A stretch of DNA of 64,000 nucleotides from Volvariella volvacea V23 (taxonomy: Eukaryota; Basidiomycota; Agaricomycetes; Agaricales; Pluteaceae). Positions 5,903 through 40,400 of the stretch are shown here, in pieces (the stretch's first letter is position 1; every line of letters starts with the position of its first letter). The notes below the pieces were generated by a model that saw only the letters and a program-made list of their open reading frames with translations, searched no databases and was not told where the DNA came from. A program made the position numbers and the translations under genes. The stretch spans positions 431,593-495,592 of the forward strand of contig KB722739.1 of NCBI GenBank assembly GCA_000349905.1, given 5' to 3'.

Positions 5903-8900
5903 ATGCCGAGCGACTTGGATAGGTGAGTGAGATGCAGATCTACACTAACTTTGATGGTGAGTCTCACCATCTTTGCACCGCTTTCTTTCTGTCTTTAGGC
6001 AGATTGAACAGCTCAAGAAGTGTGAGCCGATTTCAGAGGAAGAGGTTAAGAGGTTATGTTTCAAGGCGAGAGAAATCCTGATTGAGGAGGGGAATGTGCA
6101 ACTCGTAGATTCTCCCGTTACTGTGAGTAGAATCTGCTCGTGTGTCCGGATGTTCCTCATTTTCATTACTCGCCCATCATTAATCCATCGAACACCGCCC
6201 ATGAATGTTCTAAACGACGCCGATTCTTCAACGATACCTTCCCCTTACAACCATTAATTTGAACATTCGCCGTCCGTTGCGTTCCTGACCCTCAAAATTT
6301 TCTATGCCCCCTTTGTCAACTTCTCCGTCAACTCTGTTGTCAATCTTCATCTTATCTCTATTCGCCATCCACTCGCAAATCACGCTGGTGATCACTTGAC
6401 TTGTTCACCTCGGCTGGACTTTCTACTGTCACTTTGCATTCCATAACTGTCGAACCCCTCGACTTCAATGTTATGCGCCCTCGACGAATGCAACCTATCA
6501 TGGCAATTGCGCCTTTCCCCCATTTGACATTGGCGTGCCGTCGACATCTCAACGCCTTCGCTAACCCACTCCCCGCTCCTGAACTCATGACTAGATATGC
6601 GGGGACATCCATGGTCAATTCTTTGACCTGATGGAGCTCTTTAGAGTCGGTGGCTTTTGCCCCGACACCAATTATCTATTCATGGGTACGTCTCCATTTC
6701 TGCTCCCCAACATGGAACTCCGTCCGTACGGCGCCAAGTTTCTATTTTATTTATAAATGCCTTTGACTAACCATCTAATCAATATTCGCGAATACCCGTC
6801 ATATCAAATCGAACTATACCATCTCAATCGCCAACTCAATTCATCACGATTATCACGTTTTCGATTGATCACGCCTTTGCAACGACAACAACACGTTACG
6901 GAACTGACGATATCTTGGTGTCAACAACCATTCCAATGAACATTTCCATCATCCACTCAACGAAATCGTACCTCTCATGCGATACGTTCTCTCGAAATTG
7001 CACTGGAATGGGTGCTGTCGGTTACAATTCTTCCTTGTTCCTTATTGTTGATATTTACGTGATTTTCGTTCTTGGCCATCATTTCCCCTAACCACCTTTC
7101 TCCAACTAACCCAATTATCTAACTCTCTTCCATCCTCGTTTAACATAAACCGCTAAACAACGGGCGTCGGAAAATTCCCCGTGCTAATGTCAATTTGGCG
7201 CTAACGGCCAAAATTGCGTTCCGTGGACTGCCACACGATTCGACGCCCAACGCTTGGATTGTATTGCGAACGCCGGAACACCATTCCGTCAACGCCAAAC
7301 TTCAAACGCTACACATTATGCGCCGCAAACACGCCCCCCTTCCCCCCTCCTTCCCCTTCGCGTATGGTTTCGTTTCTTGTTTTCCTCGGTGGAAAAATGA
7401 ACGAACACCCGGCTCAATCCGTGGGCTTATGCGTACGGTCTTACGTTCCGTTGTTCCGAACAACTGGTTGGCAAATTACGATGGACGGCGAACTCGTATT
7501 TTCCTGCCATTGTCCGTGGTACCCACAATTCGATGCGATATCTGTCAATGGACTCATTTTTCTGGGACTCTATACCCAATTCGACGCATCGTTTCGGGAT
7601 AACACCTACCGCATGCATTGCTCGCCATGTCAATGCTTGTTTCGAACTGATATGGTCGCCCTTCCCGATGTCAACCACCTTCTTGTCACTTTCTAATCCT
7701 GTTCCGAATCAACCAATCACGAATCCCCAGGCGATTTCGTCGACCGAGGGTTCTATAGCGTCGAGACCTTCCTCCTCTTACTGGCCCTAAAAGTCCGTTA
7801 TCCGGAACGTATAACACTCATCCGGGGCAACCACGAGTCCAGGCAAATTACACAAGTCTACGGCTTTTACGATGAATGTTTGAGGAAGTATGGGAGCAGC
7901 AACGTCTGGAGGTGGTGTTGTGAGGTATTTGATTACCTTGCTTTGGCAGCTGTAGTCGACGGGAGAGTGTTCTGCGTTCATGGTGGCCTAAGTCCGAATC
8001 TACAAACCATAGATCAGGTGGGTGTGTTCGTGGCTGTCTTCTTTGAAGTTGCCATCTCTGTGGCAGGCTTTGTTCTTCTCCCGCCTTGCGCTGTCCTTCG
8101 GTGATCTCCAAATGCTGGCCTTGCTGTCTCGTTCTCGTCATCATGCATTGCCTGGGAGGGTATTGTGATTATCCCCCCACCATCATCAGCGGATTATGTA
8201 CTCCAGGAGGCGTGTTGATGTTTTTCATGTTGCGCGCTTGCTGCGAGCTCTCTGTCGCTTCGTGCATGGCGTTCATTGATGCTATGCTCACTTTTTTTTC
8301 CATCGGCACGCCACATGCCCAGTACCCATTGATGGACGGCGACTATTTCGGCGTTCATACTGAGTTTCCTGTTCTGGTTGATCCCGAGTTCGTGCTCGCG
8401 CTATCAGCACGTGGTAGCGGGCTAGTTGTCGATCTGGCAATCCTGTGCTTATTTCACTGCCCCAGATGATCATTAAGAGTTTACTGGTCAGCTACTGGAC
8501 CAGCGTAATTTCTTCATTCGGTCATCGCATGCGTTTTTCAGCCATTTTTTCAGCGTTTCCTCTTCTTTGTGCGAAATGCTGATATTCCCCCTCGATGCTT
8601 AGATCCGTGCGATAGACAGAAAACAAGAGGTGCCGCATGACGGGCCGATGTGTGACCTGTTATGGTCCGACCCAGATGGTGAGCAAAAAGATTATCTATT
8701 TTTTTTTCCCTTCTCCGTTATCACCTACGTACTTTTTCTTGCAAACTTCATGGCAATCGCGATTCAGCGTGATGCATGGTGGATACCTATTCTATGCGTG
8801 GCTGGACAAACCCCATTTCTTTGGTCTCCGTTCATGTTTATCTTTTTGGCTTGATGAATCCACGAGGGGATATGGCCAACGCAGACGTGTTTTTTTTCCC

Positions 8901-11705
8901 GGCTTGCTGTAACTGTCACCGCCTTGGCGACCTTCTCTGGTTACTCTCGTTACGGAAAATGGAATATTCCTCTCTCACACACCCTCATGCCATGCTAATA
9001 CGTGCGTGTGGCTGAATTGGGTCGCTCACACAATTGAAACTTCAGATATCGCGGGCTGGGGACTGTCTCCCCGAGGTGCTGGATATCTATTCGGAGGAGA
9101 TATCACCAAGATATTTGCTCATAACAATGCGATCGATCTGATTGCCAGAGCTCATCAACTTGCCATGGAAGGGTACAAGCTCATGTTTGATCAAACCATC
9201 GTTACGGTCTGGAGTGCACCAAACTATTGCTACAGGTGCGTGTGCTGCCTTCTTTTCCTTTGATTTGTCAAGTCGTGGGTATGGGCATACCATTTTCATT
9301 ATTTTTTTTTACCCGTCGTCAACTTCTTTCGGCGCACGGTGAATTGGATGTGAACTGTTCTTCGATTTTATCGCCTCGTTGCTTTGGTTCAGTTATTTCT
9401 TTTTGGGGCTGTTTGTAAAGTTTTTTTCGGACGTGTCTTTCCATCCCGCTTTCCAATTTCCGCCACCCGTATTACGGGCGGCAACATTACAACGGAGCCG
9501 TCATAGGCAAGCTTTCTCCTTGTGGTCACTATCATCCATGGACTTCTGAGTCCTTCCTTTCTCTTCTTTCTCTCGTCATGTAGTCTGCGCTTTTTTGAAT
9601 GCGTCTCCAAAACGGGGCATTAGCATTCATGATCTGCTGGGCAGTGGAGCGCAGTGTCTAATGCATTGACTTTCTTGTCAACTCCCCGCGTTGCCTGTCA
9701 GCTGTTCGGTACTCGGGAGCGTTATATGATCCACTATGCGATCATTCTTCTGACCTGTATTGGCTTCTATCGTGTTGCGATTGTCCCGGTGCCGTGCTGT
9801 GGTGCTCTGGCCCACTTACCATGTTACCTGTTGCTCATTTAGTTCCCGAATTGTGCAGCTCTTTTCTACCTTTCTCATTTTTCACGCATTTTCTCCTTTT
9901 TTCAAATTGCACAAAAGGCAGGAATGGTGGACTCAGGGCTCCAGTCAGCGTCGGTGAGCGGTCCGCACACCACTGAGCCTTCATCTCAAGGGATGGAGGA
10001 GGAAGTACGCTACTCACGGTGATGTGATGGCGTAATGGCATGATGACCAATAGGCCCCGCCGCCACTCAATTATTTAATTAGCGTCTTATCGACCCTCCG
10101 GACTTTGAGGGTTCCGGCAGCAGCCCCGCCTTCTACCCCGGTGCGCTCAGAGCCATTACGCATACTACACTTCTTCAGTGCGTTTAGGGATACAACCCTA
10201 CGTGGAGCTCACCATCCGTTACGTTTCCATTCGTCAAATACTGCCACACTTTCTATTTTGTCTGATCGGCAGCTCTATATACATGCATGTGGTTTAATGT
10301 GCTACGGGAGCCGTAGTCCGTTTATCCCCCAATATCTCCTTGATGCTGTACTGGACTTCAATAGCCTGGTTGGTACTGTGTCAGATGTCCGTGAGCTGCC
10401 ACTGAAGTCAGGTGCACCGGCTGCGACTTGTATTTTCACAGGCAGTAGAGTAGGATTGAGGCGGGTAACACTTTCTCTCCGTGCTCACCGCCTACCTTTC
10501 TTTCAATCCACCTGGAATTGCAACTTTCCCCTCTGTCGTGTCCATGCATCTACTCTTCTACGTTTCAGGGGTTCCTTGAAGAGCTTGGCGGCTATCATTC
10601 TAATCACCTCTCTTATACGGAGCATGTGTGAGCAAGAATGAAAGTCATTCATCATGTTCCACTGCCGTCAATTTTCAGCATCATGTATTTCATGCCTACG
10701 ACTTGCTTTTCATGTATCTCTTCCACTATTATGGGTTGGCGCTGACTTTCCGTTTATATTGCATGGTCTCCGCGCATGGTACCCATTGCCCTCAATCGTG
10801 CCCAATCTTACCCCGGAAACTCTACTGAAACTCATAATACGACGATAAATGCAATCACCGCTCTCACATCATAATCACCCGATACAATCGACCACTCGAA
10901 CCACACACAAAACGTGAAATCCATGTTCACAACAGATGCGGCAATGTTGCTTCGATTCTAGAACTTGACGAACACCTGGGGCAGGAATACAAAGTCTTCT
11001 CACATGCTGCAATCGTGAGTCTTATGCATGTCCTATTCACTTCATTTTCTTTTGCTCTCGCTACCCCCCTCTCCTATCTTTTGCTTCCGTCGTTTCATTG
11101 GTGTTCTTCGAATCTCGTTCATTCGTACTCCTTAACGGCAAAACCCGATTCCGTTTCAATGATAACGCCTCGGATGCTGTCATCCAGTTATGACCTAGGC
11201 ACTGTTGGTTCATGACCGACACCGAAAGGCTCGAGTTGTCATTTTTCTAAAGTTCTGGGTACTACCGTTTCGTTCCAACCCACGTTATCATAATATTTCC
11301 TTATTTCGCATTCTCTTTGCATCTATTCCAGTCGATTTGTACTCATAGCCTTTGGTTCTCACTCTTTTTTCACTTTCCGAGAACCTTACGGAATGCCATT
11401 GTCTACTGCATGTTACTATGCGACACCACTCCATTACCTTCTCTGGTCATAACAAACCTTATCCAACTCCATTTCCCTGACTTAAGTCCTATTCGCATCG
11501 CTTTTTCTTTCTCCTCAGGGAAGTTGCAAATCCCGATTTTCCTTACAGCCTCTGCTTCCCCGAAAAATCCGGGGGATTCAATGGTTCACTTCATTACTGC
11601 CCCAGCCACCTCTGTTGAACCATTGCTGATTCGTGCCATCTGTTTACGCATTAGGATGTAAAATCAATACCTGCAAAACGACCACCCGCGGATTATTTCC
11701 TATAA
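5903..11705 (+). CDS. PPH3: Protein phosphatase 4 catalytic subunit
   Basis: Metallophosphatase of the PP2A/PP4/PP6 group that removes Ser/Thr phosphates, in yeast acting in DNA-damage checkpoint recovery. Eight exons: 5903-5922, 5999-6122, 6595-6685, 7731-8017, 8603-8678, 9046-9235, 10936-11014, 11655-11705. They sum to 918 nt, giving 305 residues, against about 307 in animals. The N-terminus [18 protein letters not shown] is PP4-type. Metal and catalytic motifs are all present: GDIHG (exon 3), GDFVDRG and RGNHESRQ (exon 4), CVHGG, then [11 protein letters not shown] across the exon 6/7 junction. The C-terminus ends PADYFL, the site where the last Leu is carboxymethylated in this family. Nothing is broken. 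Odd point: introns of 76, 472, 1045, 585, 367, 1700 and 640 nt make up 84% of the gene, unlike every other gene here, and two of them almost lack AG on the sense strand. Confidence 0.96.
6123..6594 (+). other. PP4 intron 2, AG-free from donor to acceptor
   Basis: This 472-nt intron starts GTGAGTAG and ends GACTAG. After the donor region there is no AG on the sense strand from about 6131 to 6592. A branch-point-like GCTAAC lies about 20 nt before the acceptor. The splice joins V-T to I-C-G of the VTICGDIHG block, so both borders are secure. Confidence 0.93.
6686..7730 (+). other. PP4 intron 3, ~990 nt without internal AG
   Basis: This 1045-nt intron starts GTACGT and ends CCCCAG. Its borders are fixed by joining MG to GDFVDRG. 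Reading every line, the only internal AG is at 6737-6738; the next is the acceptor at 7729-7730. Branch-point-like GACTAAC occurs just after the single AG (about 6764-6770), with more CTAAC/CTAAT motifs further on. Two overlapping open frames at 7195-7696 show no family match and lie inside the intron. Confidence 0.95.
9236..10935 (+). other. PP4 intron 6, 1.7 kb, composite composition
   Basis: Borders are fixed by the CYR/CGN join. By hand count AG is sparse in 9236-9900, near random in 9901-10678, and absent from 10679 to 10933 just before the acceptor. The middle block could be a later insertion, but I see no terminal repeats or coding remains. The 178-codon open frame at 10105-10641 shows no known motif. 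Confidence 0.85.
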
Positions 11706-14700
11706 ATGGTCTTGTCCCTATTCTCGATACAATGTGCGGCGTAGCCACTCAAGACCCGTTGGCTATGCGCGCGCATTCTGTTATAATCCACTATCGAGAC
11801 CGAGTATTCACTCCAGTGGCGACAGACCCTTTTCTAGTTAATCGGTATGAACAAACAAAGCATTGTTACCCCTCTACTTCCAACTTCGCTGTCAAATGGA
11901 TTTAAATTCTATCTCTTATCCCTCGCTTCTCACCCCAACCCAACCCTAAAATTTCAGTATTCCCTCGATCAGGGCTCGAACCTTACTTCCTGCGGAACCC
12001 ATCACCGCATCGCGTTGAACGACCGTCTTTCACTTTTCCCCACCCACACTCGATTAGTGATCATTACATCTATAAAATGAATGTTCATCATTACAGGGCG
12101 ATGCAAATGCCCGTCTGATTTTTCTGTTGTGCGTACGCTGCGGTTGGATGTTGATGATGCCTGGCCAAATCTGCCAACCCTTAATGCGCTCATTTGTTTG
12201 TCGCTTTTGAACCTCTCATATCTGTCTTCGTATTGGTGGGAAAGTAGGGTTCTCGTAACACCGCCGCTGCTAGCATTTCATGCACGCGTCAAGCTTAGGG
12301 TGTATACAGTGACGAAGATTGGTCATCGAGTAGGTGCCAGTCGAGTGCGGGGGAGGCAGGCCTCTGTCGTCATTTTTGATAAAGGTAGTAATACCTATCA
12401 TTTACCCTGAGTCGGCTTGACAGATTTCGACAATATATTCTGTGGGCACTGGACATCATCGTCATACCTCCGACCCATGTGCATATTTTTGTTGGTCAAT
12501 TAACCGGAGGATTTCACCTTCTGATCCTATCTCAACAGGATAATGGTTTTCACGCGGTGGGCATAGAGCAGTACTAGTGGAGGTGTAAAGACAATAAACG
12601 CCGCTTTGTGCGAAAATGCCACGCGCTGGCCATTCGAGCATTTTCAACCGGATGGCGCTTATTGTGGAGCGCGTAATGATAAGAAAGGTACATCATCGTG
12701 GTGGATCCGGGCGCACCTATGTTATCTCGCTTGTTCTAGGTCTAACACTTTCGTCGGTTAGATCCGTAAAACAGGAGAGTGATTCTGGGTGAAAGTGAAT
12801 AGATTCCACTAGACAAGGAGTGTAGAAGACTGATGGAAGGTAAGGTATTAGGTTAGCAATGCATATTCCATTGTTGAGACCGTGGAAAACACACAAGCCT
12901 CATCAGAACTCAAAGGAATGTCATAAGAGTGACCATTTAGAGGGGGGTCTCGGGCAGAAGGCCCAGACACGTGAACTGTGTTCGTACCGCAGCCAAGTAC
13001 CCGTTACTGAAATCGACAACTGCCAACCCCTTGCTGCAGGTGAAATCCCCGCCATCTGCTTGACTGCAACTTACGGCACTAATCCACATCGAGTCAGCTG
13101 ACAACCATTTAGACTGAATGATTGTGCTTATTATGGCATAATTTCCTGTCATTGGGGCATTCCATTGGTAAAAGAGTGTAGATTGTACGCTATTAGGCTC
13201 ATTGGCCAGCCGTGCTGACGTGAGTCTTTTGATAGTCGATGTGGTTTACAGGCGTCGTTTGGAACATCGCATGCAAGGCCGCCTACAACGGTGGCCTTCC
13301 AATTCGGATCAAATGTAATGATGGACCGGTATTCCGATGGACTAATGACTCTGGCAGTGAATATTCAATGCGCTTAGAAGTGAGGCACATACCCAAGCTT
13401 AGACTTAAGCTTCGAGAAGAAAATCTCCATCAAAAGCTGTTTATTTCACTGCTTACTAGTACAACAGAAGTTTAGCGGACTTGAGGTGATATATTGACCC
13501 ACAGTTACGGAATGGCGTCGATGCTGTTACGGGCGCTCCGCTGCCGGAAGCTGCACTCCTGTTCAAGTTCCCCAGAAAGGCATTTTGGTACAATGCATTC
13601 AAAATGTCAAATCTATGAGTATTTATGAGCAGTTAGTTGCATCCTCGTCGCATTGCATCTAAGACCGGTCGATCCTGGTCAGAAGCATAGCATGAACGAA
13701 AAACGTGGGTGACACCTTTTTTGCGTAGTAGAGCTTTTCTCTAAGGAAACACACCTCAGCTACATCGCGTTTGGCATGTTATCAACGGGCACTTACCGTA
13801 CGTCACTTAGCTAACGGTCTCGGGGATGTCGACAGAGGTAGCTGCTGGATACACCTTTTCTCAAGCCAATAGGTCTCCGCTTGCTATTCAAACGATAGAG
13901 ATGGGAGGCCCCCATTAAACCAACCTTGTTAGTCTTTGTACTCTCACGAATATACAGCATCCTCGGGCAGCCAACCGTAGATTCGGGATGCCATTACTCT
14001 TCACACTCGCACAAAGGGTATGGACATTAGGCACGAGTCGAAACTATGCCTCGTGAAATATGGAGCTCATGGCGGTCGAGATGTGCCCATCTGAAAGAGG
14101 CACCACCCTCATCTTCCAGAGCATACCAAGCCAGATGGACAGATAGATAAGACCTGGTTGCTGGAAACTTGTATGAGCTGAAAGCTTCATTTCTGCAGGC
14201 AGCCTCCTTCCAGGCACTTGTCATGCTTCTGTCTGATATGCTACTGGAGTGCGCTTCCACCGTCAAAAGCGCTATTGTTAGCGCGAGCTTATCTGACAAG
14301 CTACGCTTCCGATACCAGATTGTGGAGATTGAACGCAAGAATTACTTGTCAACAAACTACTGGCATTGTGAGGTTAGTTGACACCTACTTGCATCGACTG
14401 CCTCAAACTTATGCGCTGACTATCAACGCCTATGCATCAGCACCCCGATTTGCGCGCTACCCCTAACTTGCTCCCCTATACGTCCATCGCTGTACCTTGG
14501 CGATGAATGCAAGTCGGGACCGGACCCCCAGCGAGCCCGAGCTTATCGCGGCACAAGCCTTCCCGAAGATCCAGTGTTCAATGATCACCACCAACCATAG
14601 AGTCGGTCATTGATTTAGAGGCATATGACGCCGGACTCACCTGCGGAGAATTGACTGGCCTCCATAGCATGATCAACTATTGGATCAACGCATCACGATC

Positions 14701-34448: not shown

Positions 34449-37400
34449 ATGGCCTCGAACCACTCTCAGGCTATGGCATCCGGCGACCTCGTCGACCTCG
34501 TTTCCTCATCCGGCTCGGCCACCATCTACCCCTCTGACGACGCCATCCTCGCCGTCCTCCAGGCTCGTTTCCGTGCCGATCTTCCCTACACCAGAATCGG
34601 AGCAACCAACTTGGTAGTTGTCAATCCTTACAAGACCCTCGCAAATGTGAACGACCACAGCGCCAAAGAGTACGAAGAACGCTGCTACAAAGACACCTCC
34701 CTCCCCGTCGCCGGCTCGCAACGACCCCTGGAGCCCCATCTCTACGAGCTCGCAGCAAAGGTCTACCTGATGATGAGACGAAGAAACGAGTCCCAGTCGC
34801 TTGTCGCTCGGTGAGAATCTCCGTGATTGTTGCTCTCCGTTGCTGACCAACATCAAGCGGTATCACTGGATCAGGCAAATCCTCCAGCATCCGCTTGTTC
34901 ATCAATCAAGTCCTCCGTCTTTCTGCTCATTCCAAGCGAGAAGGCCGCATCTCGGAGCAAATCAAAGCTCTGCACACCGTCCTCGACTCATTTGGCAATG
35001 CCAAAACCGTCATGAACCCTAATGCCTCCCGCCACTCCCGCTATCTAGAACTCCACTTCAACGAACGAGGACGCATCTCAGCCGCCAAAGCCCTCACCTT
35101 TGGTCTTGACAAGTCCCGGCTTGTTCGGCTGAGTCATGAGGAACGGACGTTTCATATTTTCTACCAATTTCTAGCCGGCGCCACTCCCGCAGAGCGCGAT
35201 ACATACAACCTCGAGGATCCCTCAGACTACGCACTCCTCGCTTCATCAGGCTGCTATCGCCTCCCCGCCGGTCCCTTTAGCGATGACTCCATCGGCATGT
35301 CCGAGCTGCGGGCATCTATGAGAACGCTGGGGTTCAAACCCAAACACTTTAATTCTATCTATAGCCTCCTCGTGGCCATCCTCCTCCTTGGAAACCTCGA
35401 ATTCAGAGACGGTGACGCACATGACGTGTCAGCATACGTCTTCAACACCCAAGTCCTCGATCAGGTCGCGCGCTTGTTGGGCGTCCCCGTCGACGAACTC
35501 AGCCAAGTTCTCACCAACAAGACCAGCTACGTCCGCAAGGAGCTCTACACCGTCCTCCTGAATGCGGAGCAGAGTTCGCTGCAGCGGGATCACCTCGTCC
35601 GGGATTTGTACGCCATTTTGTTTGCATTCGTTGTCGAGACGGCGAATCATCGCCTTGCGCCGTCGGCCAAGGACCCACCTCCCACCACTCAGATTGTCAT
35701 ACTCGATCAACCCGGTTTCCAAACCAAGGGTCCATCCGGCACGACGTCAATGGCCTTTGCCAGTGCTACACCCCTCATTACTCCATACGGGCAAAACGGG
35801 TTCGACGAGTTTTGCATCAATTTCAGCGACGAGCTCGTCCAATCTTATGTCCTCCGACACACCTTCGAGGATCAAGTAGGGTACAACAGCCAGATGGTCA
35901 GCGATGGGATTGCGCTCCCAGCGATCTCAACGATGGACAACGGGGCCTGTGTGGAGCTACTCCGCGGAGCCCAACTCAACGAACGGGCACAACGGAAACC
36001 GGGGGGTGTCCTGGGAATTATGAATAAAGCCTCCTCAGCCTACAAATCCGGCAAAGCGAGCGACCACAAGGACGAAGACATGCTCCAGGAGCTCGTCACC
36101 AAATTTGGCGTGCACGCCTCATTCGTCGCCAACCCTGGGGGCGGGAACGCGTTTACGAAAAACTTTTTCGGGATCAACCATTACGCCGGGCCGGCGTCGT
36201 ACGACACGCAGTCGTTTGTGGAGAAGGACTGCGATTTGCTTGATTCGGCGTTTGTGCCGCTGTTGCGGTCGAGCTCGGATGCGTTTATCGCGAAGCTGCT
36301 GAGCGGGCCGAGTTTGGCGGCGGAGAAGCACAGTCGGGATGAGAATATTGTGGCGCAGGCGCAGGTGTCGTCGAGGCCGTTGAGGCAGCCTACGCCTGTG
36401 CTGGTGGATGGAGCGCTGCCGAATGAGAAGGAGGAGCATCCGAGGTTGGATCCGATGAAGACTTATCCCGTGACGGCCCAGGTGAACTTTACGCTCTCGG
36501 AGGTGTTTGCGTGTTTGGATAGGACGAGGGTGTGGACGCTGGCGTGTATCAGGCCGAATGATTCTGGCTCGTCGAATTCGTTTGATAAGAGGCGGGTGAA
36601 GGCGCAGATACGGTCGTTGTTGTTGCCCGATGTGGCGTCGAGGAGGTCGGTGGAGTATGTGGCGGAGTATGGGCTGAATGAGTTTTGTGAGCGATATGTG
36701 CCGACGATGCAGGGGTCTGATACGGAGAGGATCACGCAGTGTGCGAGAGCGAATGGGTGGAGGGAGGGTGTGGATTTTGCGGTTGGACATCGGATGGTGT
36801 GGTTGGGGTATGGAGCGTGGAAGATGGTGGAGGATAGTTTGAGAGAGTTGGAGAAGGAGATGAAGAAGGGCGGGAAGGAGGAGGAGGAGGACGAACCTGA
36901 GAATGTGTTTGCGGATGATAATACGGAGTATACCCATCAAGATACCACAACGGGTGGACATGGAGGAGGGTATTTCAACGAGAGTAACGACAATCTACTG
37001 CTCACGAGGACGGGAACTAATGGAACACAATACCAAACTGCAAACGCACCATACTCGGCGGGTGGGTTGCTTACACCACGTCACGACGATGGCGCCTGGA
37101 GCGCAGAGGACGACAAGAAAGGCCCCTCATCACCCAACTCGGCCACCTTCCCTCTCACCAAAGAAGCCCCCGGCGGCGAGCGTGGCATGATCGTCAACCC
37201 CGCCCCCAACGCCGTCGAAGCCGTCCCCACCAGCCGCATCCGGCGCGTCTGGCTCTGGATCGTCTGGTCCACGACCTGGTGGATCCCCTCCTTCCTCCTT
37301 CGCATCCTCGGCCGGCTCAAGCGGCCCGATATCCGACTTGCCTGGCGGGAAAAGTTTACAATCTTCTGGCTCATCTTGTTCCTCAACGGCCTCGTCATCT

Positions 37401-40400
37401 TTTGGATCGTGTGGTTCGGTCTGCTGCTGTGCCCCGAGTTTGACAAGGCGTGGTCGTTGAGCGAGTTGGAGCAGCATCAGGGGGATAACGATTATTGGGT
37501 CGCGATCCAGGGAAATGTCTATGACGTGTCGAATTTCGTGCATGGAGATCATAGTGATATTCTTGGCTCGCCTTCTAATGCTCCTGATTCGCTTGAACAA
37601 CTCGCTGGGAGGGATTTGACAGGGTATTTCCCGCCTCCGTTGGTGTTGGCGTGTCCTGAGCTGGTGACGGACGATAATTTGGACTTGTTGAGGGCTAATT
37701 TTACACCGGAGGTTCCGAGCGCGATGCATGTTAGTGGGAGGAGACAGTCGGCGCAGGGTACGCAGTTGAATAATGACAATTGGTATGTGGAGAGGTTTTT
37801 GCCGAAGATTAGGAAGTTTAGGAAGGGCCCGGTGGTGTACTCGAGAAAGTCGGTTAGGGTCGAGGCTGAGGATCCTGATCTTCGAAGGTTGGTTGTGCTT
37901 TTTTTGTTGATTTTGTGCGTGTGTTTTTGGCGGTGCTGATCACTTTTGTTGTAGAAATTGGGTTATCTGGGATAACAGCGTTTACGACCTCTCGGATTAT
38001 ATCTACACTCAGAGCTTTGCCCCGTCCAACGTGGAGCTTTTCAGCTGGCTTAATACTGACGTTGTGGACATCTTCAAGCAACGACTCGGACAGGACGTGA
38101 CAGAGGTCATGAATAACGTTCTCGATGGTTTAAGCGACCGAGAGCGCACGCTCAACGTCAATTGTCTCAAGAACGCGTTCTATATGGGCAATGTGGATTT
38201 CAGGCAGACGGCGAGATGTCAGACGCAGAATTATATCCTAATCAGTTTTTCGGCTATTTTGATGGCTTCGATGGTGCTCAAGTGTGAGTTTCTTTTCAAG
38301 CCTTTTCCCTCTTGCCGCTTTTCGGTTTGTTTGTGTTCTGCCGCCGGGTTCTTTGCCGCCTGCGCCTGCGGGAGCAAAAAAAGGGGACCCTTGTTTGATA
38401 ACCATCTGCTAACATCACATTTTTTTCACGTTTTCCCTTTTCACAGTCTTGGCTGCTCTCCAACTAGGGCCTAAGCGCCATCCCGAACTTCAGGACAAAT
38501 TCGTGCTGTGCCAAGTCCCGTGTTATACTGAAGGAGAAGACTCCCTCCGACGCACGATCGACTCCCTCGCTGCCCTCAATTATGATGACAAGCGGAAGCT
38601 GATCTTCATCATTTGCGACGGGAACATTATTGGAAGTGGAAATGATCGGACGACGCCGAGGATTGTGCTGGATATATTGGGTGTGGATCCAAAGGTGGAT
38701 CCGGAGCCGTTGTTGTTCAAGAGTGTTGGGGAGGGCTCAAAGGCGTTGAATTATGGAAAGATTTATTCGGGGTTGTATGAGTTTGAGGGGCACGTTGTTC
38801 CGTGGGTGTCTTCTTTTCTGTCGCGTGATGATTGATAGGAGTGTGCTAACGTTTTTCCGTTGTTTGGTTGTTTAGGTATATGGTCGTGGTGAAGGTTGGC
38901 AAACCGACTGAGAGAAGCAGACCTGGCAATCGAGGCAAACGAGATAGTCAGATTTTGTTGTTGCATTACCTCAACCGCGTGCATTTTGATGCTCCTATGT
39001 CGCCACTCGAGTTGGAAATCTACCATCAGATGAGGAACGTGATTGGTATCGATCCTGCATTCTACGAGTACATCTTCACTGTCGATGCCGATACGGTAAG
39101 CATCCCACCCCGTGCCCCGAGTGAATTGTCCAAGACACTCTTGCTGACGCACACATGTGTTGTAGACCGTTACACCTGACTCGCTGAACCGATTAGTGGC
39201 CTCATGCGCAGACGACTCGAGCATCATTGGTATTTGCGGCGAAACGAAGCTGGACAACCCCGAGGCATCGTGGTGGACCATGATCCAAGTGTACGAATAC
39301 TACATCTCCCACCACCTCTCCAAGGCCTTTGAGTCTCTCTTCGGCTCCGTCACTTGTTTGCCCGGTTGTTTCTCTCTCTACCGTATCCGCACAGCAGACA
39401 AGGGACGGCCCATCATCATCTCCAACCGTGTGATTGATGAATATGCGGAACCCAACGTTGACACGCTGCACAAGAAGAACCTGTTCTCGCTCGGTGAGGA
39501 TCGGTTCTTGACGACGCTGTTGATGAAGCATTTCCCGACGTTCAAGACCAAGTTTATTCCTGATGCGGTGGCGCACACGATGGCACCCGAGTCGTGGAGG
39601 GTGTTGTTCTCCCAGAGGCGTCGGTGGATCAACTCGACGGTGCATAATTTGTGCGAGTTGGTGCTGTTGCCAGAGTTGTTTGGGTTCTGCTGTTTCTCGA
39701 TGAGGTTCTTTGTGTTTATTGATTTGCTGTCGACTTTGGTGAGTAGGATGGTGTTTTGTATGGTGGTGGCTGATAGCTGATGTGCTTGGTCGTGAAGATC
39801 TTGCCGTCTACGGTCGTCTATTTGGTCTACCTTATCGTCACAGTCTCCGTTGGAAATCGACCGTTCCCCATGCTTGCGATTATCATGTTGTCCGTCGTTT
39901 ATGGTCTCCAGGTTGGTTTGATCACTCGAGAGATTACGAAGATTTTAACCTCGTTTATTAGGCCTTTATCTTTATCATCAAACGAGAGTTCATGCTCGTC
40001 GGCTGGATGGTTGTTTATATTGCCTCGTACGTCTTTCCGTATCTCTGGGCACTCATTGATGGCTAAAAACCACCGTGCAGATATCCAGTTTACAGCTTTT
40101 TCTTGCCCATCTATTCCTTCTGGTGCATGGACGAGTTCAGTTGGGGTAACACCCGTCTCGTCGTAGGTGAGGGTAAGGACAAGAAGGTCATCGTGAACGA
40201 GGACGAGAAGTTCGACGAGTCGATGATTCCTCTCAAGAAGTTCAGCGGTACGTATACTTGAGAGTCTGAGTCCCTTGTTGCTTATTTCTATTTTACAGAA
40301 TACGAAGCCGAGGCTTGGGATACTGCATCTCGTCATTCGGATGAGACTGGTATCAGCGGCAGCAAGGCTCGTTCTCGATCACACGCCCCACGCTCGCGTG

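Follow-up and report, generated by a model that had tools for sequence, protein, structure and literature searches.

Positions 5903 to 11705 of the window, the 64,000-nt stretch of DNA analysed here, hold a gene for the PP4 catalytic subunit. Its eight joined exons encode 305 aa without interruption, and the protein matches PP4 orthologues. All seven introns begin with GT and end with AG, as spliceosomal introns of this type do, and the reading frame is kept across the junctions; the introns are presumably spliced as modelled. A preliminary description of this DNA had identified the gene correctly, together with the number and coordinates of the intron on which it focused. When a 284-aa query lacking the last exon is compared with known proteins, the best-matching orthologue is that of Hebeloma cylindrosporum (94% identity), and proteins from Pisolithus and Suillus are 92% identical (among 120 matches listed of 7,994). 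In a protein search of the whole genome (35.39 Mb, 54 contigs), the PP4 exon matches are 82-90% identical to Hebeloma protein P0004. No second PP4 copy was found in this search, the counts of which are lower bounds; the listed matches elsewhere are 42-67% identical. The fungus is an agaricomycete and probably belongs to Agaricales; besides these PP4 matches, the myosin-chitin synthase encoded in the window has its nearest named matches in Termitomyces, Sphagnurus and Asterophora (68-69%), its best match overall reaching 71%. The gene is likely to be essential in this fungus. The parts of the gene model, and the AG-free zones that are the subject of this analysis, are:

5903..5922, forward strand: PP4 exon 1, with the start codon (MPSDLD); placed by the intact joined protein and the orthologue match
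5923..5998, forward strand: intron 1, 76 nt, of ordinary size
5999..6122, forward strand: PP4 exon 2, placed by the protein match
6123..6594, forward strand: intron 2, 472 nt, with AG at +4, at +7 and at the acceptor only
6131..6592, forward strand: AG-free zone of intron 2, 462 nt, reaching up to the acceptor
6595..6685, forward strand: PP4 exon 3, with three AGs
6686..7730, forward strand: intron 3, 1,045 nt, with one internal AG
6737..6738, forward strand: the lone internal AG of intron 3, at +52
6739..7728, forward strand: AG-free zone of intron 3, 990 nt
7731..8017, forward strand: PP4 exon 4
8018..8602, forward strand: intron 4, 585 nt, with 20 internal AGs against 20.6 expected
8603..8678, forward strand: PP4 exon 5
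8679..9045, forward strand: intron 5, 367 nt, with 5 internal AGs against 15.5 expected; the 159 nt before the acceptor are AG-free
9046..9235, forward strand: PP4 exon 6
9236..10935, forward strand: intron 6, 1,700 nt, with 59 internal AGs against 71.2 expected; the last 255 nt are AG-free
10936..11014, forward strand: PP4 exon 7
11015..11654, forward strand: intron 7, 640 nt, with 14 internal AGs against 19.5 expected
11655..11705, forward strand: PP4 exon 8, with the stop codon

Chaperonin (Cpn60_TCP1) genes of the same genome served as a yardstick for ordinary introns. Eight of the ten genomic places with such genes were used (31 of 33 matches), and 14 gaps between profile-adjacent matches in five genes yielded 13 introns in four genes. 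These introns are 40-80 nt long, with a median of 53 nt; the caller's scoring favoured introns that carry a motif of the CTNAY class, which we take to be branch-point-like, and at least one call (score 1.6) is doubtful. Six of the seven PP4 introns, at 367-1,700 nt, fall far outside this range. Between neighbouring matches in the eight chaperonin genes, the widest spacing is 311 nt, which probably contains an unmatched exon, and the longest AG-free run is 91 nt. Ab initio intron finding was unproductive: codon usage gave one intron and then 22 weak ones, and motif enrichment around donors fared likewise.

Intron 3 is almost devoid of AG. A machine count of the forward strand confirms to the base what had been read by eye, that the lone AG at 6737-6738 is followed by 990 nt without another until the acceptor itself at 7729-7730. 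The other fifteen dinucleotides all occur in 6739-7730, between 33 and 100 times each. GA (42), GG (33) and AA (81) remain common, as had been claimed, and because CT is still present 64 times, the gap is specific to one strand. The preliminary description presented the zone for intron 3 alone, where it holds, but it overlooked the corresponding zone of intron 2 and the inflated introns of the gene as a whole. Both stretches have the form of an AG exclusion zone as defined by Gooding et al. (2006), in that no AG precedes the acceptor for a distance (990 and 462 nt) far longer than expected. Upstream of the zones, only 53 nt with one AG remain in intron 3, and 8 nt with two AGs in intron 2. Both zones terminate exactly at acceptors, and the three AGs of exon 3 are kept between them; the complete PP4 coding sequence has 60 AGs in 918 nt. 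Stretches without AG also close intron 5 (159 nt) and intron 6 (255 nt), so AG exclusion is common to several PP4 introns and extreme in two.

Base composition predicts 42.2 internal AGs for intron 3, which has one. The preliminary description had proposed a comparison with shuffled introns. In 3,000 letter shuffles of intron 3, with the first 10 and last 2 bases excluded, the AG count has a mean of 41.6 (sd 5.2) and a minimum of 24. The same procedure applied to intron 2 gives a mean of 13.7 and a minimum of 3, compared to none observed. An earlier estimate of the probability was (15/16)^990, or effectively zero; a first-order Markov chain with introns 4-7 as its training set yields a milder figure of about 1e-14 for 990 AG-free bases (~3e-7 for 462). 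The zones depart from this chain in other dinucleotides as well. In intron 3, AA occurs 81 times versus 34 expected, CT 64 versus 93 and TG 56 versus 85, and in intron 2, GG occurs 6 times versus 19 expected. With an A content of 24.3%, the intron 3 zone is richer in A than an AG-excluded version of the chain trained on introns 4-7 (16.8%), and it is therefore not a polypyrimidine tract.

The surrounding DNA was searched for comparable gaps. The control sample consists of the window and the 200 kb upstream of it on the same contig, both strands included (264,000 positions, of which 14,975 are N, leaving ~249 kb). It represents 0.7% of the genome, and it is within this sample that such zones are restricted to PP4. 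Outside the gene, the longest of 15,230 forward-strand AG gaps is 224 nt, measured start to start; six of them reach 159 nt and none reaches 255 nt. Among the 14,646 minus-strand gaps outside PP4, counted as CT gaps, the longest is one of 307 nt. This gap, at about G000 C4 372497-372804, is T-rich, and 7.8 AGs are expected there per 400 nt. Windows of 990 nt give the same result (n=5,425; both strands, step 90, those containing N dropped). Twelve hold fewer than 20 AGs and 20 hold fewer than 25, and all 20 are on the forward strand with starts at 6011-11231 in PP4, although some extend beyond its stop codon. When 4,942 windows of 400 nt are ranked by observed over expected AG, five of the seven lowest that are separate from one another are in PP4. 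Chance or base composition is excluded as an explanation by the shuffles, the Markov chain, the gap lengths across the sample and the occurrence of zones in two adjacent introns.

A weaker deficit is seen at the other end of the gene. The region 10601-12200, which takes in the last part of intron 6, intron 7 and sequence past the stop codon, is G-poor, and its AG content is roughly 50-75% of that expected. Its successive 400-nt segments contain 9, 9, 9 and 9 AGs versus 18.6, 12.0, 15.3 and 15.9 expected, and the deficit is also present beyond the coding region.

The zones could owe their composition to a special origin, such as a repeat array, a transposon, a recent insertion or a mutational bias, without being under any present constraint. 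Their departures from introns 4-7 in dinucleotides other than AG are compatible with this idea, as is a comparison with Lentinula, in which a PP4 gene model is 17 residues longer, precisely at the intron 3 site. These residues can be read as a retained intron of 51 nt, in which case the length of intron 3 in the present fungus is probably a derived state, gained in its lineage. However, the zone contains no inverted repeat, its direct repeats are short and weak (one 11-nt unit in two copies), and a search of the 35.4-Mb genome with the intron 3 region gives one match. An origin from a repeat or transposon, which was also considered for introns 4-7, was ruled out by these repeat and genome-match searches. 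If a mutational bias were responsible, exon 3 and the other introns should have lost their AGs too. Neutral change also erodes an AG-free sequence rapidly. Of the 2,970 single-base changes open to the intron 3 zone, 404 create an AG, and in simulations of neutral change the mean number of AGs rises from 1.2 (1% divergence) to 6.2 (5%) and 21.8 (20%). The zone is still AG-free in 27 of 400 simulations at 2% divergence but in none of 400 at 5%. The AG-free state is therefore either very young or maintained. Maintenance by selection is the better reading, since random DNA fails to yield such a zone, the repeats are short and weak, and the genome match is single; an unconstrained special origin is highly improbable.

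Hidden products were also sought. Five open frames (four on the forward strand, one on the reverse) have no Pfam match at E 0.1, and there is no Rfam match that would point to a known RNA. Searches of viral and prokaryote genome collections returned no orthologous loci.

AG might instead be avoided for a reason other than its use as a splice site, for example because an RNA-binding repressor or an RNA modification or decay signal reads this dinucleotide. Such a cause would likewise produce a strand-specific gap, though nothing more direct speaks for it. It would not account for gaps that stop exactly at acceptors while AGs are kept in the coding sequence and, 93 in all, within introns 4, 6 and 7 (20, 59 and 14). 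We regard it as scarcely credible.

Selection against cryptic acceptors would best explain the pattern, as far as the sequence of one genome can indicate. It is favoured because only AG is missing and only on the transcribed strand, because the gap stops exactly at two acceptors and the exon between keeps its AGs, and because neutral decay is fast. This part of the interpretation offered in the preliminary description is therefore retained. Its other part, a very distant branch point, is represented by candidates, of which the main ones are:

6765..6771, forward strand: GACTAAC, putative distant branch point (A 6770, 85 nt into intron 3, with 960 nt left to its end)
6774..6779, forward strand: TCTAAT, a second candidate 8 nt further on (A 6778)
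7088..7123, forward strand: cluster of three CTAAC motifs (A 7091, 7109 and 7122), 608-639 nt before the intron end, with more pyrimidine downstream
7693..7697, forward strand: CTAAT (A 7696, 34 nt from the 3' end of intron 3), a rival candidate for a near branch point
6156..6160, forward strand: CTCAT, the first CTNAY motif of intron 2 (A 6159, +37), candidate

Introns 2 and 3 are probably AG exclusion zones over nearly their whole lengths, kept so by selection that acts through a branch point far upstream. In this mechanism, lariat formation would come first, at the far-upstream branch point. For intron 3, this would most likely be the CTAAC/CTAAT pair with A 6770 or 6778, and the CTAAC cluster at 7091-7122 perhaps also serves. 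The spliceosome would then use as its 3' splice site whichever usable AG comes first past the branch point, at a distance of 600 to 960 nt. A new AG arising inside the zone would create a premature acceptor in an essential gene, and selection would remove it; homology suggests that the PP4 protein needs the exons on either side of these introns. The mechanism presupposes that a first-AG rule operates in this fungus and that the selection would be ongoing. If the rule applies, the branch point of intron 3 is expected at the 5' edge of the zone.

The arrangement of motifs is in keeping with this expectation. GACTAAC and TCTAAT are the first CTAAY motifs after the lone AG of intron 3, and ACTAAC has a frequency of 0.12 per kb in the sample. 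The internal AGs of both introns (+4 and +7 in intron 2, +52 in intron 3) all precede the first CTNAY motif, which is CTCAT at +37 and CTAAC at +85, respectively. Ten of the 13 ordinary introns, called with a scoring that favoured such motifs, carry CTNAY; the median distance from the A of the last motif is 41 nt to the 5' splice site and 15.5 nt to the 3' end, and the first motif of intron 2 is near the former value.

Other observations are less favourable to a single distant branch point. GACTAAC does follow the lone AG, as had been pointed out, but it is one of 15 CTNAY motifs in intron 3, another of which lies 34 nt before the intron end. Intron 2 also has a CTAAC near its acceptor, with the A 30 nt before the intron end. 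There is no pyrimidine tract beside the distant candidate, since the 30 nt after A6770 contain 60% pyrimidine and the intron average is 59%; after the 7091-7122 cluster the value is 70-77%. RNA folding that would shorten the distance between branch point and acceptor was not found (z = -0.66, with 5 of 20 shuffles folding equally well). Four of the ten ordinary introns that bear a CTNAY motif have an AG between the last motif and the acceptor, and two of these four have their sole motif at +10 or +11. Either, then, the first-AG rule has exceptions in this fungus, or the motifs were called imperfectly. Because of the near-acceptor motifs, the enrichment of CTAAY described below, these four ordinary introns, the plain folding and the pyrimidine-poor context of 6770, the strict version with one distant branch point is not proven.

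Intron 3 might alternatively have many usable branch points along its length, one of them near the acceptor. Every stretch of the intron would then be downstream of some branch point, and AG would be excluded throughout. CTAAY motifs are indeed enriched in the intron 3 zone, where eight occur although the first-order chain of the zone itself predicts 2.3 (P about 0.002 in 1,000 simulations), and the CTAAT at 7693-7697 could act as the near branch point. However, CTAAY is one of six motifs tested, and the broader CTNAY class reaches 15 versus 9.8 expected (P 0.07). Intron 2 is AG-free too, yet it has no enrichment of either class (CTAAY 1 versus 0.9 expected, CTNAY 6 versus 6.4). Introns 6 and 7 are rich in CTNAY (16 and 9 motifs) but nevertheless contain 59 and 14 AGs. 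Multiple branch points are a possible explanation, though we consider it unlikely to be the correct one, and a far-upstream branch point in each of the two introns is preferred.

AG exclusion zones are a known kind of element. Those described for mammalian alternative exons have mapped branch points 100-400 nt away and a pyrimidine tract (Gooding et al. 2006, PMC1431707). They reflect a rule, as put forward in that account, by which the second step of splicing takes the first AG past the branch point, which leaves an AG-free stretch between the two. A report on human introns gives AG as strongly depleted from 8 nt past the branch point and puts the share of introns that contain one at 0.7% (PMC10655562), and a similar depletion in yeast is stated, with data not shown, in another paper (PMC11651659). 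In contrast to the mammalian exons as characterized there (PMC1431707), which are alternatively spliced, the PP4 zones are 990 and 462 nt long, A-rich and found in a fungus with short introns. The zone length, the filling of nearly whole introns, the A-richness and the host with its short ordinary introns look new. A literature search at the level of titles and opening lines of abstracts, which covered few of the subscription journals, found no AG-free zone of such length.

Two described systems resemble these introns in part. Intron 4a of vertebrate OGDH has branch points 25-41 nt from its 5' splice site and AG exclusion over most of its length; in the fish example the zone measures about 280 nt (PMC7969005). 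That intron enforces the mutually exclusive use of exons 4a and 4b and stays short, according to the same source, whereas the PP4 introns have grown; no duplicate of PP4 exon 3 was noticed. The Schizosaccharomyces pombe TER1 intron is fungal, and the account of it attributes slow passage from the first to the second step of splicing to a long distance between branch point and acceptor (PMC4299874). In TER1 as presented there, splicing does not complete its second step and the 5' exon is set free as the product, whereas both flanks of the PP4 introns are coding and must be joined.

The retarding effect of distance reported for TER1 (PMC4299874) motivates a further suggestion for PP4. The fungal spliceosome might join these exons across a span of ~950 nt from branch point to acceptor by a directional search for the first AG, and both introns might be kept in this state because it slows the second step, which would act as a kinetic brake and so set the output of PP4. 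This is speculative, and we think it rather doubtful.

These introns bear on an old question, namely how far the spliceosome can reach from a branch point to a 3' splice site, and whether the first AG is truly the one used. The mapped spans in the literature examined, as far as the cited accounts describe them, are at most 400 nt, and two introns with zones of 990 and 462 nt in one transcript offer a ready test substrate. Such zones are unexpected in a fungus whose sampled ordinary introns are ~53 nt long. They also bear on how introns lengthen when splicing proceeds by intron definition, since growth would take place between the branch point and the acceptor with AG kept out.

Among the inflated introns of the gene, intron 6 may be long in other Agaricales too. 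The gene models of Agrocybe chaxingu (P0027), Pleurotus cornucopiae (P0033) and Coprinellus micaceus (P0038) break exactly at its site, and that of Suillus paluster (P0014) has 23 extra residues there (among the 120 listed homologues). Elsewhere in the control sample, stretches of 975 and 546 nt are free of CG (G000 C4 about 304079-305054 and 286291-286837). They are AT-rich and keep TG and CA, and methylated, decayed transposon DNA would fit this composition. Further along the window, positions 34847-37936 hold a large open frame for a chitin synthase with a myosin head and a cytochrome b5 domain.
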